Positions 18,212 to 27,678 of a DNA stretch of 39,951 nucleotides are shown here, in pieces. Origin of the DNA: a virus. The notes under the pieces are model-generated. The model ran no database searches. It saw nothing but the letters and a program-made list of their open reading frames with translations, and was not told where the DNA came from. Each line of letters starts with the position of its first letter. Position 1 is the stretch's first letter. A program made the translations under genes and the position numbers. The DNA is taken from the IMG/VR virus record IMGVR_UViG_3300046010_003885, positions 1 to 39,951 of that record. One strand, 5' to 3'.

Positions 18212-18379
18212 CTACTCCTTGATTCTGTTAGCTTCCTTACTTCTCCGAATGGTCTCTTCACTAAAGAAATCTGGGTGGTAGTTTCCATCCTTATCCAGAA
18301 TCTTTGCCTTATAGAGCAACTCCATCCTCTGCTCCTTAGTTAGGAATTCGTATATCTTAATTCCATCAATATTTATCAT
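18212..18379 (-). CDS. Small conserved phage protein
   Basis: A 55-residue protein: MINIDGIKIYEFLTKEQRME, LLYKAKILDKDGNYHPDFFS, then EETIRRSKE. The LTKEQR-x-x-LLYKAKI and G-x-Y-x-P-x-FFS-x-ET pattern recurs in T4-like phages. No function is known. Its start overlaps the GIY-YIG gene's stop by four bases. Confidence 0.6.
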   Translation of the reverse strand: MINIDGIKIYEFLTKEQRMELLYKAKILDKDGNYHPDFFSEETIRRSKEANRIKE

Positions 18380-18807
18380 TTGAATAATGTCCGTACATGA
18401 TTTCTGTGTATTTTTCCACCAACAAAGGCATTGTACCATTTGTCTGGTTGAATTAGTACTTCATTAATAATCTGTTCTTTCATTTCAAGATAGGAGCATT
18501 CACCTTTGGTTTGGCAGAAGTGAATAATTTCACGAGTGAATTTATCTTCTCCTAGTGCTTTAACGTCGTTCTGGAGTTCTAAGGAAGATGACCAATAAGT
18601 TCTCCAATCGGAGTCAACTTTAGTTTTGATACGTTTCTTCTTTTTCTCACCAGACTTTAGAGTGACTGTCTTGATGGAAGTTTTAGCAAACTTTGCTAGC
18701 TTCTTTCCAATATACTGGCGACCATCTACCAGATTAGTGATTAGGTAAACAAATCCTTCACAATCTGGTAGCTCGGTCACTGGATTACCATTATAGGTCC
18801 AACTCAT
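18376..18807 (-). CDS. GIY-YIG nuclease superfamily protein
   Basis: A 143-residue protein with the GIY-YIG nuclease fold: FVYLITNLVDGRQYIGKKLA carries the double Tyr-Ile-Gly signature with catalytic Tyr and Arg candidates, then a basic loop (KTSIKTVTLKSGEKKKKRIK) and ELKEDVKAL-like helices ending in CSYLEMKEQIINEVL, where the Glu can bind the metal. It is shorter than the two GIY-YIG homing-type genes in the window and lacks DNA-binding repeats. It is a frequent orphan gene in T4-like phages and could be a homing or structure-selective endonuclease. In the same operon as its neighbours. Confidence 0.75.
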   Translation of the reverse strand: MSWTYNGNPVTELPDCEGFVYLITNLVDGRQYIGKKLAKFAKTSIKTVTLKSGEKKKKRIKTKVDSDWRTYWSSSLELQNDVKALGEDKFTREIIHFCQTKGECSYLEMKEQIINEVLIQPDKWYNAFVGGKIHRNHVRTLFK

Positions 18808-19383: not shown

Positions 19384-19619
19384 AAAGTTTTCCAACCAGT
19401 TTCAGTTCGAACCTTAACAGGATCTTCCGTCTCGATCCAAACCTTAGCACCACAGGATAATGGATCATCTGGCTTATATATCACCTTCCCATTTACAAAA
19501 TCAACTTCATGGCCATACAAGTTCTCCTTGTATGTCTTACACGTGATAACAGGATTACGTTCTCCTGATTTAGCATTAGCTTTAATCACGTGTTGGTTAA
19601 TGTGAATGATTCGTTTCAT
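19380..19619 (-). CDS. Conserved small phage protein
   Basis: A 79-residue protein in a family common in phages and plasmids: MKRIIHINQHVIKANAKSGE, then PVITCKTYKENLYGHEVDFV, KVIYKPDDPLSCGAKVWIET. Function unknown. It follows nrdA-C by three bases and overlaps the thermonuclease-like gene by four bases. Confidence 0.7.
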   Translation of the reverse strand: MKRIIHINQHVIKANAKSGERNPVITCKTYKENLYGHEVDFVNGKVIYKPDDPLSCGAKVWIETEDPVKVRTETGWKTL

Positions 19620-19622
19620 AAA

Positions 19623-20618
19623 TCAACCATGGCACGAAATGCACTCGGATTTATTAGTTTGCACTCCACTTTCTGATCGAATATAGTACAGACTTTTAAT
19701 GTATGGGTCCAAAAATGCCATCTTATGAACTGAACTAATATACTCTTCAGTCTCTTCAGAACTAAAGAACAGATTGATACTTTGAGCTTGATCAATATAC
19801 TTCTGACGTACTGAAGCCAATCTAATGATCTGAGTTTGGTCAATTTCAAAAGCAGTCTTGAACACTAACTTCTCTTCGTCAGTAAGCCAATCAACGTGCT
19901 GTACTGAACCTTTATGATTGATAATGTCCTTCACTACTTCTTCAGAATAAACGTCCTTCTCTTTCATTAGTTTGAGTAAGGTAGGATTCACTCGATCAAT
20001 CTTTCCAGCTGCAGTATTCTGTACGAAGGCGTTTTTGTATATTGGTTCAATGCCTTGGCTAACGGAACCACATATCAGAGCAGAACTCAGGTTAGGAGCA
20101 ATAGCAATTCTGTGAGTATTTCTTACACCATATCCTTTACACCATTCTGGTTCTCCAAATGCTGAAGCCATCCATTGAGAAGCTCTTAACGATTCATCAT
20201 GAAGATGTTTGAAGATTTCTGTATTCTTCAGATTAGCTTCGAATGATTCAAATGCAATATTGTGTTCTTGGAGATATGTGTGGAATCCTAACAATCCTAA
20301 TCCTAGAGCTCGGCTTTTAGTAGCAAATCGTACTACCTTTTCCATCCCAGTAATTTTACTACCAATATTGATTAGGTCTTGATTCACACAATCAAGAAAT
20401 ACTGTTGCATCAAATACCGCAGTAGTATCTTTCCACTCATCATAGAGAGAAGCATTCATTGATGATAATACGCAACTAAAGGTATGGTCGTCATCAGAGA
20501 ACAATTGTATTTCTGAACAATTGTGTACCAATATGTCATTGGCAAAAAAATTATGATTATCTTCTACCGATATGTCATAAACGTCTTCTTCATAATCTAA
20601 ATATTCAATTGCTATCAT
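19623..20618 (-). CDS. nrdA: NrdA C-terminal half fused behind the C-terminal split intein (class Ia ribonucleotide reductase large subunit)
   Basis: A 331-residue polypeptide whose first 33 residues are a C-intein (VYDISVEDNHNFFANDILVHN) and whose next 298 residues are the second half of the class Ia ribonucleotide reductase alpha subunit. The extein starts with Cys, the +1 nucleophile, which is also the catalytic thiyl-radical Cys of NrdA (the SNLC-x-E-I site, C439 in Escherichia coli numbering). FSCVLSSMN carries the second redox Cys (ALCTLSA in E. coli), and NKSECISCHG at the very end is the C-terminal redox pair that reloads the active site. Joined to the N-half by protein trans-splicing it would give a complete enzyme (about 568 residues). 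The gene has its own ATG and an AAGAGGATAAC site, 9 bases downstream of the HNH stop. Confidence 0.9.
   Translation of the reverse strand: MIAIEYLDYEEDVYDISVEDNHNFFANDILVHNCSEIQLFSDDDHTFSCVLSSMNASLYDEWKDTTAVFDATVFLDCVNQDLINIGSKITGMEKVVRFATKSRALGLGLLGFHTYLQEHNIAFESFEANLKNTEIFKHLHDESLRASQWMASAFGEPEWCKGYGVRNTHRIAIAPNLSSALICGSVSQGIEPIYKNAFVQNTAAGKIDRVNPTLLKLMKEKDVYSEEVVKDIINHKGSVQHVDWLTDEEKLVFKTAFEIDQTQIIRLASVRQKYIDQAQSINLFFSSEETEEYISSVHKMAFLDPYIKSLYYIRSESGVQTNKSECISCHG
20520..20618 (-). other. C-terminal split-intein segment (Int-C)
   Basis: Codes for 33 residues ending in HN followed by the extein Cys. Block F (VYDISVEDNHNFFAND) and block G (ILVHN, then C) are complete: His in HNF, penultimate His and the terminal Asn that cyclises are all present. 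There is no endonuclease domain. Together with the N-segment at 21601-21927 it forms a split intein. Confidence 0.9.
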
Positions 20619-20627
20619 GTTATCCTC

Positions 20628-21542
20628 TTAAATATAATCTATAGGGTTTAAATCTTTACACCACTTTTGATGTATCTCACGCTTGTATCCAGTTCGTTCT
20701 TCTACTATCGGAAATAGATCCTTTCCATAATTGAATCTATACTTGGACAAAGATTTTGGAAATTGTAAACCAGTTTTCAACATATACACCTTTCTGAAAA
20801 ATGCCAGTGATGGAATATTCTGCAACTTGTTGCTGAGTAGTATAAATTCTTGTAAAAACTCTTCGTTTGTTATACCACTAAACCTGCTATTATTTTCGCC
20901 ATCCGTATTACTAGTAGCGCCACTCCAATCTTCAGTCAACCTTTCATCATTTATTGAACAATATATACGTTCACCTGTCACCTTATTATAATATGTATGA
21001 TTTCCTTTAGAATGATGAACCCATTCACCTGATAATATTTTTGGATGATTTTTATCAAAAGATCCCATTATATCTCCAGTAATTACACATTTAACTGGAA
21101 ATGTGTCTTTCCTTGATTCAGAAATCCTTCTTATACCATCTTCAGTTTGCCATCCATGATTGTGTCGAAAATCTGAACTATTTTGTTTCATCCAGGCATA
21201 AGATGATCTTACCTTATTAGATATTATGGTAGGAATGCTTCCGTACCTTGGGTTAGTTTTGATGCCGTTTATAATACATCTAACTGCAACAAAATCGCCC
21301 CTATCACCATAGGCTTTATATCTCAATCTATGAGCAAACAAATGTTCTTCAGGCAATAATACTACTAAATTAGTGTCTATATCAGTTCCACCAACCGATC
21401 TCGGAATTATATGATGAACCTCTGTATATAATGAATCGTATTGTAATCTAAAGTCATGTTGATTGCGTTCTAACATCCTTTTTCTAGGATCAGTATTCTG
21501 GCAATGTGAAACAAATTCGTCGTATAATTTTTTATAATTCAT
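20628..21542 (-). CDS. Free-standing HNH homing endonuclease inside the fractured nrdA
   Basis: A 304-residue protein with an HNH nuclease motif near the N-terminus: EVHHIIPRSVGGTD with His43 and His44, Asn58 in NLVVLLPEEHLFAHRL and His67/His71. This resembles phage free-standing HNH endonucleases of the MobE type, which spread by cutting uninvaded copies. The rest (about residues 90-304) has no clear domain but includes the CVITGDIMGSF type of DNA-recognition segment seen in these proteins. It lies exactly between the two nrdA/intein halves. It is controlled by a late promoter and a ribosome-site hairpin (see the regulatory entries). It probably cuts the intein-less nrdA gene. Confidence 0.82.
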   Translation of the reverse strand: MNYKKLYDEFVSHCQNTDPRKRMLERNQHDFRLQYDSLYTEVHHIIPRSVGGTDIDTNLVVLLPEEHLFAHRLRYKAYGDRGDFVAVRCIINGIKTNPRYGSIPTIISNKVRSSYAWMKQNSSDFRHNHGWQTEDGIRRISESRKDTFPVKCVITGDIMGSFDKNHPKILSGEWVHHSKGNHTYYNKVTGERIYCSINDERLTEDWSGATSNTDGENNSRFSGITNEEFLQEFILLSNKLQNIPSLAFFRKVYMLKTGLQFPKSLSKYRFNYGKDLFPIVEERTGYKREIHQKWCKDLNPIDYI

Positions 21543-21543
21543 A

Positions 21544-21585
21544 AAATCTCCTTTAATGATATAGTATTTATAATAAAGGAGATTT
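21544..21585 (-). promoter_or_regulatory. RNA hairpin that hides the HNH ribosome binding site
   Basis: Minus strand: AAATCTCCTTTA (21585-21574) pairs perfectly over 12 bp with TAAAGGAGATTT (21555-21544), loop 18 nt. The 3' arm contains the AAGGAG ribosome site of the HNH gene and ends one base before the ATG. In long transcripts from nrdA the hairpin should block translation; transcripts that start at the late promoter in the loop would lack the 5' arm. Confidence 0.8.
21565..21572 (-). promoter_or_regulatory. Late promoter (TATAAATA) for the HNH gene
   Basis: Perfect match to the T4 late promoter consensus TATAAATA, 22 bases upstream of the ATG and inside the loop of the hairpin 21544-21585. 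Confidence 0.75.
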
Positions 21586-21597
21586 CACTACACAGAA

Positions 21598-22737
21598 CTA
21601 TTTCAATAGCAGAATATCGTTTTCTTGAAGTTGGCTTGCTTCGACGTATCCTCTATTCTCAGTGAATACCTTATGACATGGAGTACATTTTATAAACTTG
21701 CCAGTCCGTTTATCTGTAATTTTCATGAGTTTTGCATTACGTCTCATCTGAGCGGACTTGGTAATTTTCTTCCACTCACCCACACCACTTTCTACATTAT
21801 ACGACCAAACCTTCCAATTTTCAACATCATCATTTTTACCTAGGTAATTATTCAAACCTTCCATAGATACTTCAATCTCACCACTCATATCACCTTTGAT
21901 ATTGATTCTAGTGTCGCCCGATAAACACAAGTTAGATGCCTTTACTGTAAGGCCCAAGTCTTTGTACATTTGAGGATTTTGGCGATTTACTTTATCGATG
22001 AACTCAAAGTATCCTTTACCAGTAATCATTTTAAGTTTCAATGCTTTCTGATATCGTTCAATTGCGTCAGGATCTCCTGCTTCTAATCTAGCAATGAACG
22101 CGTCAGTAACATTCCAACCAATATTAGCATCATCAGGTTGTTTGTTAATATAGTTAACTAATTCAAAGAAATCTGGGTGGTCAATTTCAATATAGCCAGC
22201 CCATGCTCCTCTACGTTGTGAACCTTGGCTAACGTCTCTCGACATTTGAACGTAATCTTTGAATACAGGAAGTACTCCAGAAGCACTACCTTTAATGCCC
22301 GAGATTTTAGAACCTCTAGGTCTAATACCTCCCAAGTAACTAGAAGTACCAAATCCATTCTTTGAAAGAATAGCAGCTTCTGTTTGTGAGTTATAGAATG
22401 AGAAAATAGAATCTCCTACTACTCCTCCTGAACAAGAAACAGGACAACCAAATCCAGTACCCATATTAGACAATACAGGAGTCGAAGCTGCTAACCAACC
22501 GTTCCATAATAGATTGAAGAATTTAGTTTCCCATTCAGCAGGATTACTTGTATACGAAGCAGCATGACTAGCCACTCTTGTATATACGGATTTCAAGTCT
22601 GGATGAGATGGAGTCAAGTAGCTACCTTTAAGCATCTGCCATGCAGCAGTAGTACACCAGTTAGGTAATAATCCTTGTTCTTGAAGGAGTTTACGTTCTT
22701 CACCTAATTCTTCATAAATTGATAATTCATTCACCAT
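21598..22737 (-). CDS. nrdA: NrdA N-terminal half fused to the N-terminal split intein (class Ia ribonucleotide reductase large subunit)
   Basis: A 379-residue polypeptide: about 270 residues of the ribonucleotide reductase large subunit followed by 109 residues of intein. The extein has MGTGFGCPVSCSGGVVGDSI (the first redox Cys, C225 in E. coli), GGIRPRGSKISGIKGSASGV (substrate-binding loop) and ends KASNL just before the intein Cys1. The N-terminus MVNELSIYEELGEERKLLQE lacks the ATP-cone domain of E. coli NrdA, so allosteric dATP inhibition by that domain is unlikely. The start is taken as the ATG at 22737 behind TTGAGGAAAT. The stop is intein-internal, 56 bases before the HNH start. Alone it is non-functional; it needs trans-splicing with the C-half. 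Confidence 0.92.
   Translation of the reverse strand: MVNELSIYEELGEERKLLQEQGLLPNWCTTAAWQMLKGSYLTPSHPDLKSVYTRVASHAASYTSNPAEWETKFFNLLWNGWLAASTPVLSNMGTGFGCPVSCSGGVVGDSIFSFYNSQTEAAILSKNGFGTSSYLGGIRPRGSKISGIKGSASGVLPVFKDYVQMSRDVSQGSQRRGAWAGYIEIDHPDFFELVNYINKQPDDANIGWNVTDAFIARLEAGDPDAIERYQKALKLKMITGKGYFEFIDKVNRQNPQMYKDLGLTVKASNLCLSGDTRINIKGDMSGEIEVSMEGLNNYLGKNDDVENWKVWSYNVESGVGEWKKITKSAQMRRNAKLMKITDKRTGKFIKCTPCHKVFTENRGYVEASQLQENDILLLK
21601..21927 (-). other. N-terminal split-intein segment (Int-N)
   Basis: Codes for 109 residues. Block A starts with Cys1 (CLSGDTRINIKG), the middle has WSYNVESGVGEWKKITKSA, and block B is present as FIKCTPCHKVFTENRGYVEA with the TxxH motif. It ends QENDILLLK and a stop codon. 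Size (109 plus 33) is normal for a mini-intein without an endonuclease domain. Confidence 0.9.
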
Positions 22738-22759
22738 GTAAAATTTCCTCAAGTTTTAA

Positions 22760-22788
22760 TTTATATAAATACGTTATATGTAAAGCAA
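22760..22788 (-). promoter_or_regulatory. Sigma70-like promoter for nrdA-N
   Basis: Minus strand: TTGCTT (22788-22783), 17-nt spacer, TATAAA (22765-22760), 23 bases before the nrdA-N ATG. The -10 region is inside the palindrome ATTTATATAAAT, which also serves the plus-strand late promoter. Confidence 0.45.
22764..22771 (+). promoter_or_regulatory. Late promoter (TATAAATA) for the GIY-YIG gene
   Basis: Perfect TATAAATA on the plus strand, followed by CGTTATATG, 85 bases before the ATG at 22856. It is the only plus-strand late promoter with a gene behind it in the window. Confidence 0.7.
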
Positions 22789-22794
22789 AAAGGT

Positions 22795-22849
22795 GTTAGT
22801 CACGGATTGCACTCCTACTAACTCTAAACATTCTATCAATAATCAGGAG
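22795..22849 (+). promoter_or_regulatory. Structured leader of the plus-strand GIY-YIG gene (possible pseudoknot)
   Basis: GTTAGT (22795-22800) can pair with ACTAAC (22817-22822), and CTCCT (22812-22816) in the loop can pair with the ribosome site AGGAG (22845-22849). The related gene at 26.9 kb has the same order of elements with a compensated base pair. Confidence 0.45.
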
Positions 22850-22855
22850 ACTATT

Positions 22856-23695
22856 ATGTCCAGCACAACTATATATACACCATTCACTTATTGTATCACA
22901 TTTCTCCCAACAGGGCAACGATACTATGGTGTTCGATATGCAAAAGGTTGTCATCCTTCTCAACTTTGGACGACCTACTTCACTTCATCAAAAATAATAT
23001 CCAATCTTATAGAAGAATATAGCAAAGATTCATTCACCTTTGAAGTTCGAAAAACATTTATCAATAAAGATTCTGCTCTATATTGGGAAACAAAATTCCT
23101 TACAAAAATAAATGCAGCAAACCATCCAGAATGGCTCAATGGTCATAATGGCGATCTAAAGTGGAATAATGTTGGTGGATATAAACTCACCGAAAAAACA
23201 GTATCCAATATGAGAAAACCAAAATCAGAATCTCATAAACTAAATATGAGAACACCAAAATCTAAAGAACGGAAACTTTCAGAAAGAACCAAATGTTTTG
23301 AGAAAACAGGATATTACTCTAATTTTGAAAATCCAGATATTATTCAAAAATGCAAAGATTCGTATTTTCAAAATACTGGATATACTCATAATTCAAAAAA
23401 TCCAGAAACTATTCAAAAGAGATCAGATAGTTATTTTGAAAAAACGGGATATGCTAACCCCTCAAAAAATCCAGAAGTGTTAGCACACCAATATGATTCG
23501 TATTTTCAAAATACTGGATATACTCACCCAAGCCTCAATCCAGAAGTTCAAGAAAGAAAAATCCAAACCTATAAAGACACATGCTCTAAAAGACCTCCTA
23601 TAAAATGCCCCTATTGCGATGTTTCTGGCAAAGGAGGCATAATGGGTAGATGGCACTTTGATAATTGTAAATTTAAACCCTTACCAACTGAATGA
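22856..23695 (+). CDS. GIY-YIG homing endonuclease with C-terminal DNA-binding repeats
   Basis: A 279-residue protein, the only plus-strand gene. The nuclease domain (residues about 8-95) has TYCITFLPTG, YYGVRYAKG and the metal-binding Glu78 in LYWETKFLTK. Four repeats of 23 residues follow (Phe at 148, 171, 194 and 217), each of the type F-x-x-TGY-x-x-x-S-x-NPE. It ends with a zinc-finger-like C251-x2-C254-x12-H267-x3-C271. Such repeats and zinc fingers recognise long target sites. The gene sits between nrdA and nrdB, driven by a late promoter, and its last 15 bases overlap the end of nrdB from the other strand. A GTG 21 codons upstream would extend the frame but lies in the structured leader. 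Confidence 0.8.
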   Translation: MSSTTIYTPFTYCITFLPTGQRYYGVRYAKGCHPSQLWTTYFTSSKIISNLIEEYSKDSFTFEVRKTFINKDSALYWETKFLTKINAANHPEWLNGHNGDLKWNNVGGYKLTEKTVSNMRKPKSESHKLNMRTPKSKERKLSERTKCFEKTGYYSNFENPDIIQKCKDSYFQNTGYTHNSKNPETIQKRSDSYFEKTGYANPSKNPEVLAHQYDSYFQNTGYTHPSLNPEVQERKIQTYKDTCSKRPPIKCPYCDVSGKGGIMGRWHFDNCKFKPLPTE

Positions 23696-24676
23696 TTTTT
23701 CTTTCCACGATCTCGTGTATGATGAACCTTGAGAACTGAAAAAATCGTGCAATACTCCCGTCGAATCTATGTCTTTATAGAACCAGGTTTTAATTGGGTT
23801 GTATGTAGGCTTAAAAATTGCTTTGTATCCTAAATTTTCCAAACAAATATCCAATCTTGATTCAACAAACGCTTTTAATTGTTTATCAGTAATCCCCTTA
23901 ATATTGCCCTTCTCGAATATCTTATCAATAATAATAGATTCGTGCTCGAGAATGACTCTTGCAGTTTCTTCTAGTTCTTCTTTGAGCTGTTCTCTTCCGC
24001 TGATGGTTAACTGATCATCTTCAAAGGCTTCTTTATCCAGAGTACGGTATAACCACGCGCCAGCTTGAGAATGAAGAGTTTCATCAATAGCTGAAAAGTT
24101 GATTCCAGCATTGACATTAATCAACTTATTTTTACCTACAGAGTTGAAATGTTTAAGAAAAGCAAATGAACTATACAGGATAGCACCTTCGATCATAGAA
24201 AACACACCGACCGATTTAAGTACATTGTATACGGTATCTTTCTTAGTGGTTCTTTTAGCAATCCAGTTCATTCTGTTAGCTAATACTTTATCTTCTTTGT
24301 ATGAGTTATAGAATTCTTCCGTATCCAATCCCAACACTTCATTAATCTTATTATAGAATGGAGCATGAACTCCCAACTCCATAAAAGAGAATGTAGAAGC
24401 CATACGTTGGATGTCTGGTCTCGGAAACACTTTACTTACATAGTTTTGCCAATAATCATTACCAACATTGAGTTCGTATAATGTGAATAATTTTAGGGTA
24501 GATATTACACCATGGTATTCTGCTTCAGTGCAATTGGTTTTGAGATCGTGTAGATCCTTTTCTACATCAATTTCATCAGGAAACCAAATGATAGATGCCT
24601 GTTGTTCAGCAAATTCTATAGCTGTAGGGTAATCAACAATGTATTCCGATTTAGGAGTTAGTAGTCTAATGCTCAT
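23681..24676 (-). CDS. nrdB: Ribonucleotide reductase small subunit (NrdB)
   Basis: A 331-residue di-iron protein that makes the tyrosyl radical for NrdA. Metal-binding residues are in FSFMELGVHAPFY (Glu and His, with the radical Tyr four residues after His), SMIEGAILYSSFAFL and AIDETLHSQAGAW. The C-terminal tail is the presumed NrdA-docking peptide (RSWKEKSFSW). In the first helix, Glu and His are separated by three residues, not two as in E. coli. It is complete and separate from nrdA by a 1-kb mobile gene; the normal nrdA-nrdB order is otherwise kept. AAGGTGAC lies just before the ATG. Confidence 0.93.
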   Translation of the reverse strand: MSIRLLTPKSEYIVDYPTAIEFAEQQASIIWFPDEIDVEKDLHDLKTNCTEAEYHGVISTLKLFTLYELNVGNDYWQNYVSKVFPRPDIQRMASTFSFMELGVHAPFYNKINEVLGLDTEEFYNSYKEDKVLANRMNWIAKRTTKKDTVYNVLKSVGVFSMIEGAILYSSFAFLKHFNSVGKNKLINVNAGINFSAIDETLHSQAGAWLYRTLDKEAFEDDQLTISGREQLKEELEETARVILEHESIIIDKIFEKGNIKGITDKQLKAFVESRLDICLENLGYKAIFKPTYNPIKTWFYKDIDSTGVLHDFFSSQGSSYTRSWKEKSFSW

Positions 24677-26875: not shown

Positions 26876-27571
26876 CTATTCCTCTATACATTGATTGATA
26901 TGCAAATCGTAATAATATTTATATTTATATTTCTTATTACAAATTGGACAAAATAAATATGGTTTATTTTTCTTAGTTTCTTTTATTTTTTCAATAACCC
27001 AGTCTATTTGACTTGGGTTCGTCACACCATACTTTTCGTGTATAGTTTTTTTTCCATTAGAAATTCTTAATGACGTATGCTCTTCAGATTGCTTTCCGTA
27101 TACAAAACCAGACATTCCTTTATTCCAAGGGACTCTACCTTGAGCCGCTAATGATATATTTTTACGATGATTGTCTGATTTTACTTTACCGCTTAATGCA
27201 ATTGATATATTTTCATTCCACTCATCATCGTGAACACGACCTATATTTTTAAACTTAGTTCCACCATTATGCTTATTTATCCACATATCATTAGCGGCAG
27301 CATCAAATTTAGTCAGTATTTTAGTTTCCCACGCTAGTGTTTGCTCTACAGTAGTAAAGACTTTTCTTATTTGATAATCAAAAGAATCGATACCGTATTC
27401 ACTTATTAATTTGTGTATTTCTTTGGATGATGTGAAATACGTATTCCACAGTTGAGATGGATTTGCTATTTTATTTGTACTATTTGCATAACTGGATCCA
27501 TAATACAATTGTCCTGTTACTTTGAATTTTAAAATATATGTATACGGTATATAAATACTTTTGCTGATCAT
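26876..27571 (-). CDS. GIY-YIG homing endonuclease with NUMOD-like motifs
   Basis: A 231-residue protein. The nuclease domain has YTYILKFKVTGQLYYGSSYA and LAWETKILTK (catalytic Glu), close to the plus-strand GIY-YIG protein at 22.9 kb. Then come NUMOD3-like segments (SGKVKSDNHRKNISLAAQGR, PWNKGMSG), one repeat of the EKYGVTNPSQ type and a terminal zinc finger CPIC-x12-H-x3-C. It lies between two virion-linked genes. The ATG at 27571 is chosen from similarity to the other gene; an upstream in-frame ATG at 27646 would add 25 residues. Confidence 0.8.
   Translation of the reverse strand: MISKSIYIPYTYILKFKVTGQLYYGSSYANSTNKIANPSQLWNTYFTSSKEIHKLISEYGIDSFDYQIRKVFTTVEQTLAWETKILTKFDAAANDMWINKHNGGTKFKNIGRVHDDEWNENISIALSGKVKSDNHRKNISLAAQGRVPWNKGMSGFVYGKQSEEHTSLRISNGKKTIHEKYGVTNPSQIDWVIEKIKETKKNKPYLFCPICNKKYKYKYYYDLHINQCIEE
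26916..26929 (-). promoter_or_regulatory. Tandem late promoter for the 26365-26874 gene
   Basis: Minus strand TATAAATATAAATA gives two overlapping matches to TATAAATA, 42 bases before the ATG at 26874, within the last codons of the GIY-YIG gene. Confidence 0.6.
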
Positions 27572-27577
27572 TAGATT

Positions 27578-27637
27578 ACTCCTTGTATTTTTGTTAGTAT
27601 GGTTAGAGTTACTGGGATGTAGGAGTCCGCGAGTAAC
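27578..27637 (-). promoter_or_regulatory. Structured leader of the minus-strand GIY-YIG gene (possible pseudoknot)
   Basis: Minus strand: GTTACT (27637-27632) pairs with AGTAAC (27613-27608), and ACTCCT (27626-27621) in the loop can pair with the ribosome site AGGAGT (27583-27578). The element order and sequence mirror the leader at 22795-22849. Confidence 0.45.
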
Positions 27638-27678
27638 TTTTTTCATTTATTAAATTTCCTTGTTGGAGTTCTTCTTTA

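Follow-up and report, generated by a model that had tools for sequence, protein, structure and literature searches.

Can a phage build a working ribonucleotide reductase (RNR) from a gene that is broken at its catalytic cysteine, and what is a nuclease gene doing in the break? The question is raised by nrdA, which encodes the large subunit of a class I RNR, in IMG/VR record IMGVR_UViG_3300046010_003885 (G000), a 39,951-base phage record that was analysed as a whole and is called the window here. On its minus strand, nrdA is divided between two genes, the first ending in an N-intein and the second beginning with a C-intein, and a free-standing HNH gene lies between them. We consider it probable (roughly 0.86) that this is a mobile fractured-gene element seated at the catalytic-cysteine codon, the intein halves splicing in trans and the HNH protein acting as a homing endonuclease. 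The parts of the locus are as follows (ORF, open reading frame; aa, amino acids; L and G numbers below are our own for loci and records).

21598-22737 (-): nrdA-N gene, NrdA-N plus N-intein (ORF 21598-22752, likely ATG at 22737)
21928..22737 (-): NrdA N-extein, 270 aa, ending KASNL directly before the catalytic-cysteine position (ORF, Pfam, alignment of relatives)
21601..21927 (-): N-intein, 109 aa, with Cys1 in CLSGDT (block A) and TPCH (block B), ending LLLK (PF14890, 8ubs, alignment)
21598-21600 (-): stop codon straight after the N-intein (sequence)
21574..21585 (-): 5' arm of a hairpin formed by a perfect 12-bp inverted repeat ahead of the HNH gene (sequence, RNA folding)
21565..21572 (-): TATAAATA, T4-late-type -10 element in the hairpin loop, putative promoter (motif scan)
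21544..21555 (-): 3' arm of the hairpin, including the Shine-Dalgarno (SD) AAAGGAG of the HNH gene (sequence, RNA folding)
20628..21542 (-): free-standing HNH endonuclease gene, MobE-like, phrog_655, 304 aa (Pfam, phrog_655, alignment)
20673..20930 (-): C-terminal domain of the HNH protein, common to same-slot GIY-YIG endonucleases; putative DNA-recognition tail (profile comparisons)
19623-20618 (-): nrdA-C gene, C-intein plus NrdA-C, own ATG (ORF)
20520..20618 (-): C-intein, 33 aa, own ATG, with block F (VYDISVEDNHNFF) and block G (DILVHN) (ORF, Pfam, alignment)
19626..20519 (-): NrdA C-extein, 298 aa, starting CSEIQ and ending CISCHG, its +1 nucleophile being the catalytic Cys (ORF, Pfam, PDB match)

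Pfam places RNR domains on both NrdA halves, which total 568 aa. Each intein piece matches Intein_splicing (PF14890), at E 8.8e-8 and 4e-8, respectively, 2-3 bits below the curated cut-off; the N-intein also matches the solved NrdJ-1 split intein 8ubs (E 4.2e-9). The nearest solved relatives of the window NrdA in the PDB are 6dqx and 6dqw, which are class Id RNRs. An earlier reading of the bare letters (the sequence-only reading) had described this anatomy, and its coordinates, sizes, motifs and 568-aa total are exact. It had claimed a split intein carried by two genes, which PF14890 on both pieces and the 8ubs match bear out, intein halves with intact catalytic residues, which are indeed there (Cys1, TPCH and HN/C, the slash marking the junction), and a free-standing HNH gene in the break, which we recover as an ORF at 20628-21542 with PF01844 at its cut-off and a match to phrog_655.

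Where exactly does the break fall? Cys439 is the thiyl-radical residue of E. coli R1, with Asn437 and Glu441 as substrate-binding residues. When the SNLC of NrdA from Yersinia phage vB_YenM_TG1 (NC_028820; hereafter TG1) was aligned to E. coli R1 chain 5r1r, its C fell on position 439; by this alignment, the break immediately precedes the counterpart of Cys439, the catalytic cysteine. An intein at this point parts N-L from C-x-E and makes the catalytic cysteine its own +1 nucleophile, and because the break lies exactly there, the unspliced halves should be dead. The position is not a matter of chance, since 38 of 49 relatives (the loci found by a search with NrdA-N) have an empty site, their exteins directly joined at exactly the break residue; the sequence-only reading had proposed looking for such intein-free genes. 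Three more of the 49 are the window virus itself. Four others (L005-L008, mutually 99.9% identical) carry the split intein with its halves separated by ~180 nucleotides (nt) that hold no ATG-started ORF of at least 50 aa, and the window HNH has no match anywhere in the records of L005 and L008. The remaining four are L010, with a split intein and a different HNH, L011, with a continuous intein in which an HNH-like segment is embedded, L012, with a continuous intein lacking such a segment, and L009, whose sequence stops inside the N-intein.

The split is not a sequencing error, because three other IMG/VR assemblies carry it: the records of L002, L003 and L004 repeat the locus with 4, 19 and 4 mismatches, respectively, and no gaps over 11,721, 17,152 and 15,315 bases, and this explanation, which the sequence-only reading had named as a danger, was rejected on that ground. 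A group I intron in the break was also rejected, as no Rfam family, intron or other RNA, was found at E<=1 in 19400-23000.

The window halves retain Cys1, T-x-x-H, block F and HN/C. Between the window and L005, which has no endonuclease gene in its gap, the ratio of nonsynonymous to synonymous differences per site (pN/pS) is 0.20 for the intein halves together, against 0.27 for the N-extein and 0.19 for the C-extein, figures of which the pattern, not the exact ratio, is to be trusted because synonymous sites are near saturation. With the catalytic residues intact and the halves as constrained as the exteins, against an endonuclease-less relative too, trans-splicing of the two halves is likely. 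A wider survey covered 88 viral-contig loci, namely the best 80 of 181 confirmed by a search with an N-intein alignment plus 8 from HNH scans. Split inteins account for 74 of them, 3 more were classed as continuous, and 11 had no match to the C-intein pattern, one of which (L179) is a continuous intein on inspection. At 85% N-intein identity the 74 form 41 clusters, window virus and TG1 included. Cys1 and T-x-x-H are present in 40/40 evaluable clusters, with HN/C in 38 and SN/C in 2 of them. The junction is NL/CxE in 35 of the 41 (L160, offset by one residue, makes 36), while 4 have NP or NPC before it, two of these (L189 and L196) matching a class II RNR domain in Pfam; the last cluster, L185, has its N side cut off. 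Clusters were called nrdA by junction motif and extein matches, some of them weak, and the motif counts are not independent proof, because the search and the finding patterns favour intein-like motifs.

We propose that two precursors are made, whose N- and C-intein pieces would pair and carry out trans-splicing. KASNL would thereby be linked to CSEI, restoring the Asn-Leu-Cys-x-Glu active site within a 568-aa NrdA. The HNH gene between the halves would encode a homing endonuclease; in read-through nrdA transcripts the hairpin would conceal its ribosome site, and an internal T4-type late promoter would yield a shorter, hairpin-free mRNA and thereby late HNH protein, on the model of I-TevI and mobE. 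The target of this protein would be nrdA lacking the intein, cut close to the same codon, with the protein's C-terminal domain as the probable guide; repair would then copy the intein halves together with the HNH gene into the cut allele.

In the HNH protein, H43, H44, N58, H67 and H71 are invariant in nine aligned sequences, the window's included. It matches phrog_655 at E 1.2e-26, is 29% identical to residues 1-117 of MobE from Aeromonas phage Aeh1 and, over its residues 1-236, is 42% identical to the HNH of the TG1 nrdA break. A fold search with its model (mean predicted local distance difference test score, pLDDT, 68) found nothing at E<=0.001, its top hits being HNH-bearing type I-F Cascade chains (E 0.11). 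When 84,980 genomes of bacterial and archaeal species were scanned with the HNH alignment, 3 of the 146 pattern matches proved to be relatives (L255-L257). Across relatives, the slot between the intein halves holds an HNH gene, a GIY-YIG gene, another gene or none. An ORF of at least 150 aa occupies it in at least one member of 28 of the 41 split-intein clusters, and 26 slot ORFs besides the window's were scanned for family matches at E<=0.01: 5 matched HNH or AHH (one above the curated cut-off), 11 GIY-YIG (all above), 3 were Phage_endo_I-like (one above), 2 matched other families weakly, and 5 had no match, among them those of TG1, L140 and L147, which can be aligned with the HNH set, and a 123-aa remnant in L149. 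Within one cluster, L161 and L162 have pieces 96.8-99.4% identical, and most of the slot gene (GIY-YIG-like by eye) is deleted in L161 while the split intein is retained, unless an assembly fault in L161 is responsible.

How might such a gene be expressed inside nrdA? Upstream of the window HNH gene, the perfect 12-bp inverted repeat pairs the AAAGGAG, and TATAAATA, a T4-late-type -10 element, sits in the 18-nt loop. The folding energy of the long transcript is -17.9 kcal/mol (z -3.4; a single shuffle in 200 did as well), and that of the transcript without the 5' arm is -1.6 kcal/mol. Judged by its letters, the arrangement is consistent with a late promoter and a hairpin that would sequester the ribosome binding site; the same design is described for I-TevI, segB and Aeh1 mobE in PMC2988022. 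It recurs, with stems mostly unrelated in sequence, in TG1, L056, L140, L143 and L205, in the GIY-YIG slots L142, L151 and L169, whose stems resemble each other, and, by an inverted-repeat test, in L162 and L191. In that test, 16 of the 28 clusters with a slot ORF, the window's among them, have a repeat of at least 9 bp reaching the SD region, as do 2 of 182 other ORFs from the same loci, and TATAAATA lay between the arms in 11/28 vs 0/182; the controls were all other ATG frames of at least 100 aa on either strand, so some of them are not genes.

Residues ~205-290 of the HNH protein resemble the C-terminal part of same-slot GIY-YIG proteins: compared profile against profile (built from 3 and 5 sequences), the tails align over 72 columns with 99.2% probability and E 9.7e-20, and four tails tested alone had no Pfam match above cut-off. 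We scanned viral contigs with the tails of five GIY-YIG-slot proteins (four Pfam-confirmed), ignoring context, and confirmed 35 of 177 pattern matches, in 19 distinct groups. All 35 lie in RNR genes; a C-intein follows the tail ORF in 32, and an N-intein-like ORF end precedes it in 27. L250 among them has a continuous NrdA intein, and L253 and L254 have continuous inteins in a class II-type RNR, a match that came from a query made from L253, whose class II call rests on Pfam. Searching the phages collection with the window HNH tail by itself gave no match, and the GIY-YIG tail of L165 found 22 records there, 20/20 among the matches listed being annotated NrdA. Two of these that were checked, LIMEstone1 and pertopsoe, have one-frame nrdA genes with continuous inteins at the same codon as the window, the window-type tail standing behind an embedded HNH-like segment (HNH by eye). 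A third phage, Curvibacter phage P26059A, has a continuous intein at this insertion point, in which a LAGLIDADG-like motif can be made out by eye; phage nrdA inteins of the LAGLIDADG type are published (PMC10448857).

A tail profile built without continuous inteins matches L011, L250, L253, L258 and L259 (E 8e-10 to 1.9e-12), and of the 80 loci retained from the 120 that the HNH scan confirmed, the 30 without RNR in the stretch examined all lack the tail. The tail scan, the phages-collection scan and the HNH scan are the fairer tests of the tie between tail and RNR; a count of 100 of 100 loci next to RNR is inflated, because nrdA or its intein had served to retrieve the majority of the loci. 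The tail would be the part that recognises target DNA. We are evenly divided over a broader proposal, in which it is a shared, dedicated DNA-recognition module for the RNR catalytic-Cys codon, joined to at least two kinds of nuclease head (HNH and GIY-YIG), carried in continuous inteins or in free-standing genes between split inteins and serving class I and class II RNRs; the split intein would then be a docking slot at which heads are exchanged while the target, the host gene and often the late switch are kept. Two tail-bearing loci stand somewhat apart. The slot ORF of L149 (2992-3363 (+), 123 aa) is the tail domain alone with no nuclease head, putatively a decaying endonuclease or a stand-alone DNA-binding protein. 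L253 (130-4101 (+), uncultured virus) encodes its class II-type RNR with three intein splicing stretches in one 1324-aa frame, which also has a weak LAGLIDADG-like part and an HNH_3 part.

Has the element moved? L010 (split intein and HNH) and L029 (empty) have nrdA genes 95% identical in nucleotides, and L011 (continuous intein, HNH-like) and L013 (empty) are 98% identical, with identity down at 0.87 over the last 60 nt ahead of the junction, the kind of trace expected from co-conversion. Compared with the window, L205 (the contig of L010) is 80-85% identical in the exteins, 38% in the N-intein and 28% in the HNH, and TG1 is 23-29% identical in the exteins (partial alignments) and 42% in both N-intein and HNH; by these identities, intein and host gene have different histories in L205 and TG1. 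In the L005 lineage, the two run in parallel (intein 75%, exteins 77-83%). With near-identical relatives that do and do not carry the intein or the endonuclease, homing becomes testable.

Would the enzyme need splicing at all? Split inteins associate tightly, and the pieces here could be docking tails that hold the halves in an active non-covalent complex. Aeh1 is the natural comparison: its nrdA-a/mobE/nrdA-b locus is likewise an nrdA split by an HNH gene with a hairpin hiding the ribosome binding site, and, in PMC3653736, the gene split by mobE is reported as functional unspliced (one legend there says intein, the text a mobE insertion). The Aeh1 break, however, lies ~10-20 residues past the catalytic Cys, leaves NLCIEI whole in NrdA-a and shows no intein motifs by eye, whereas the window's divides the active site between N-L and C-x-E and is flanked by intein motifs. 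Genes in pieces of the Aeh1 type were rejected on these grounds, and with the splice residues kept in every evaluable cluster and the halves constrained even against an endonuclease-less relative, we regard docking without splicing as improbable. That the insert is dead, nrdA being lost and both splicing and RNR activity gone, strikes us as highly improbable: low pN/pS in exteins and intein halves, an intact C-terminal CISC, an open nrdB next door and near-identical copies in three other assemblies all speak against it, even though a host or second RNR could meet the need and phage nrdA decay exists, for example in Campylobacter phages (PMC3653736).

Splicing may well occur and the HNH gene still be a passenger that does not move the intein and may cut elsewhere, an unlikely case but one to be taken seriously. 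Free-standing phage endonucleases cut hundreds or thousands of bp away from their own gene (PMC2988022), and the slot is filled variably, as described above; yet RNR genes were the only ones in which our scans detected the HNH tail domain, and continuous inteins at the same codon carry it too, in their embedded HNH-type proteins. We therefore keep to a trans-splicing element moved by its HNH endonuclease, although several observations weigh against it. Splicing and homing are predicted here from sequence; the AlphaFold model of the N-half (mean pLDDT 45) is too poor for use; and PF01844 on the middle gene scores 21.4 bits, which is the curated cut-off itself. The putative co-conversion dip is one 60-nt bin in one pair, and L010 vs L029 also has 0.87-0.88 bins far from the junction. 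Twelve of the 28 slot-ORF clusters lack the inverted repeat, and TATAAATA shows no enrichment across the window as a whole (7 seen vs 6.2 expected), so the promoter rests on position and conservation. Finally, the tail profile has no match in the HNH proteins of TG1, L205 and L211; the slot is thus usable with other tails, the tail being typical and not the sole solution, and the idea that it marks every slot endonuclease was dropped.

How does the locus compare with known systems? Vsr-like enzymes reportedly occur in about half of the fractured-gene loci of Dassa and colleagues. Those fractured genes (Dassa et al. 2009; NrdA-2, NrdJ-1, gp41-1) are likewise conserved phage enzyme genes that a split intein interrupts, an independent endonuclease gene lying between the halves, with nrdA among the hosts, and PMC3653736 cites 7 nrdA and 2 nrdJ with inteins in ocean metagenomes. 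The sequence-only reading had assigned the locus to this kind, rightly so: an enzyme gene is in two ORFs at an intein site, the N-intein has Cys1 and block B, the C-intein has blocks F and G and the +1 nucleophile, and a gene for a predicted nuclease lies between the halves. Set against the fractured genes of that kind as citing papers portray them, the HNH in the slot, the late-promoter hairpin and the sharing of the tail are described here.

The same reading had presented the HNH as what sets the locus apart, which is not supported, as an HNH in a split-intein break is not new: it has been published for Pseudomonas phage MIJ3, where a separate HNH gene likewise lies in a putative split intein but the host gene is DNA polymerase B (polB; PMC6892783), and we see it in TG1 nrdA. 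TG1 has the split intein and HNH at the same codon with the same hairpin design, and differs in its T4-type NrdA and in its HNH tail. In its annotation table a homing endonuclease is listed along with two RNR genes, and no intein, and no paper on this intein turned up by title in the literature searched, most subscription papers lying outside its reach. Calling the enzyme essential was an overstatement, since T4 nrd genes are dispensable in the laboratory. The description of the virus as a T4-like phage stands through its relatives, Gp23 and the T4 portal being found in 5 of 14 records searched (G006 with L008, G007 with L010, G008 with L041, G012 with L140, and TG1), and not through the window record, a fragment with no Gp23 or T4 portal match.

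With this locus the fractured genes gain an nrdA example that bears an HNH gene, linked to a cultured phage, TG1, where splicing is open to direct study. New here are the 41 split-intein clusters (window included), the slot hairpin with TATAAATA and the shared tail, of which the tail is the most novel. Empty, continuous-intein, split and endonuclease-less alleles are matched at one codon, so the order in which a split intein is made and the role of the endonuclease become testable, and the new natural split inteins are useful for protein ligation.

The surroundings hold further genes of the kind. In the nrdA-nrdB region (19623-24676 (-)), where the window NrdA, unlike that of LIMEstone1, has no N-terminal ATP cone in Pfam and the adjoining nrdB is an open frame, nrdA is separated from nrdB by a SegE/GIY-YIG-like homing endonuclease gene at 22793-23695 (+) (PF19835 4.3e-6, DUF7487 2.8e-8), with TATAAATA upstream at 22764-22771 (+). 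TG1 (L052 6035-7594 (+)) also has a second homing endonuclease gene, after nrdA-b and before nrdB. Elsewhere in the window, putative homing endonuclease genes lie at 18376-18807 (-) (PF19835 SegE GIY-YIG, 1.5e-31) and 26876-27646 (-) (phrog_314, 1.7e-22), which makes at least four in 40 kb, HNH included, among the subset of ORFs scanned.

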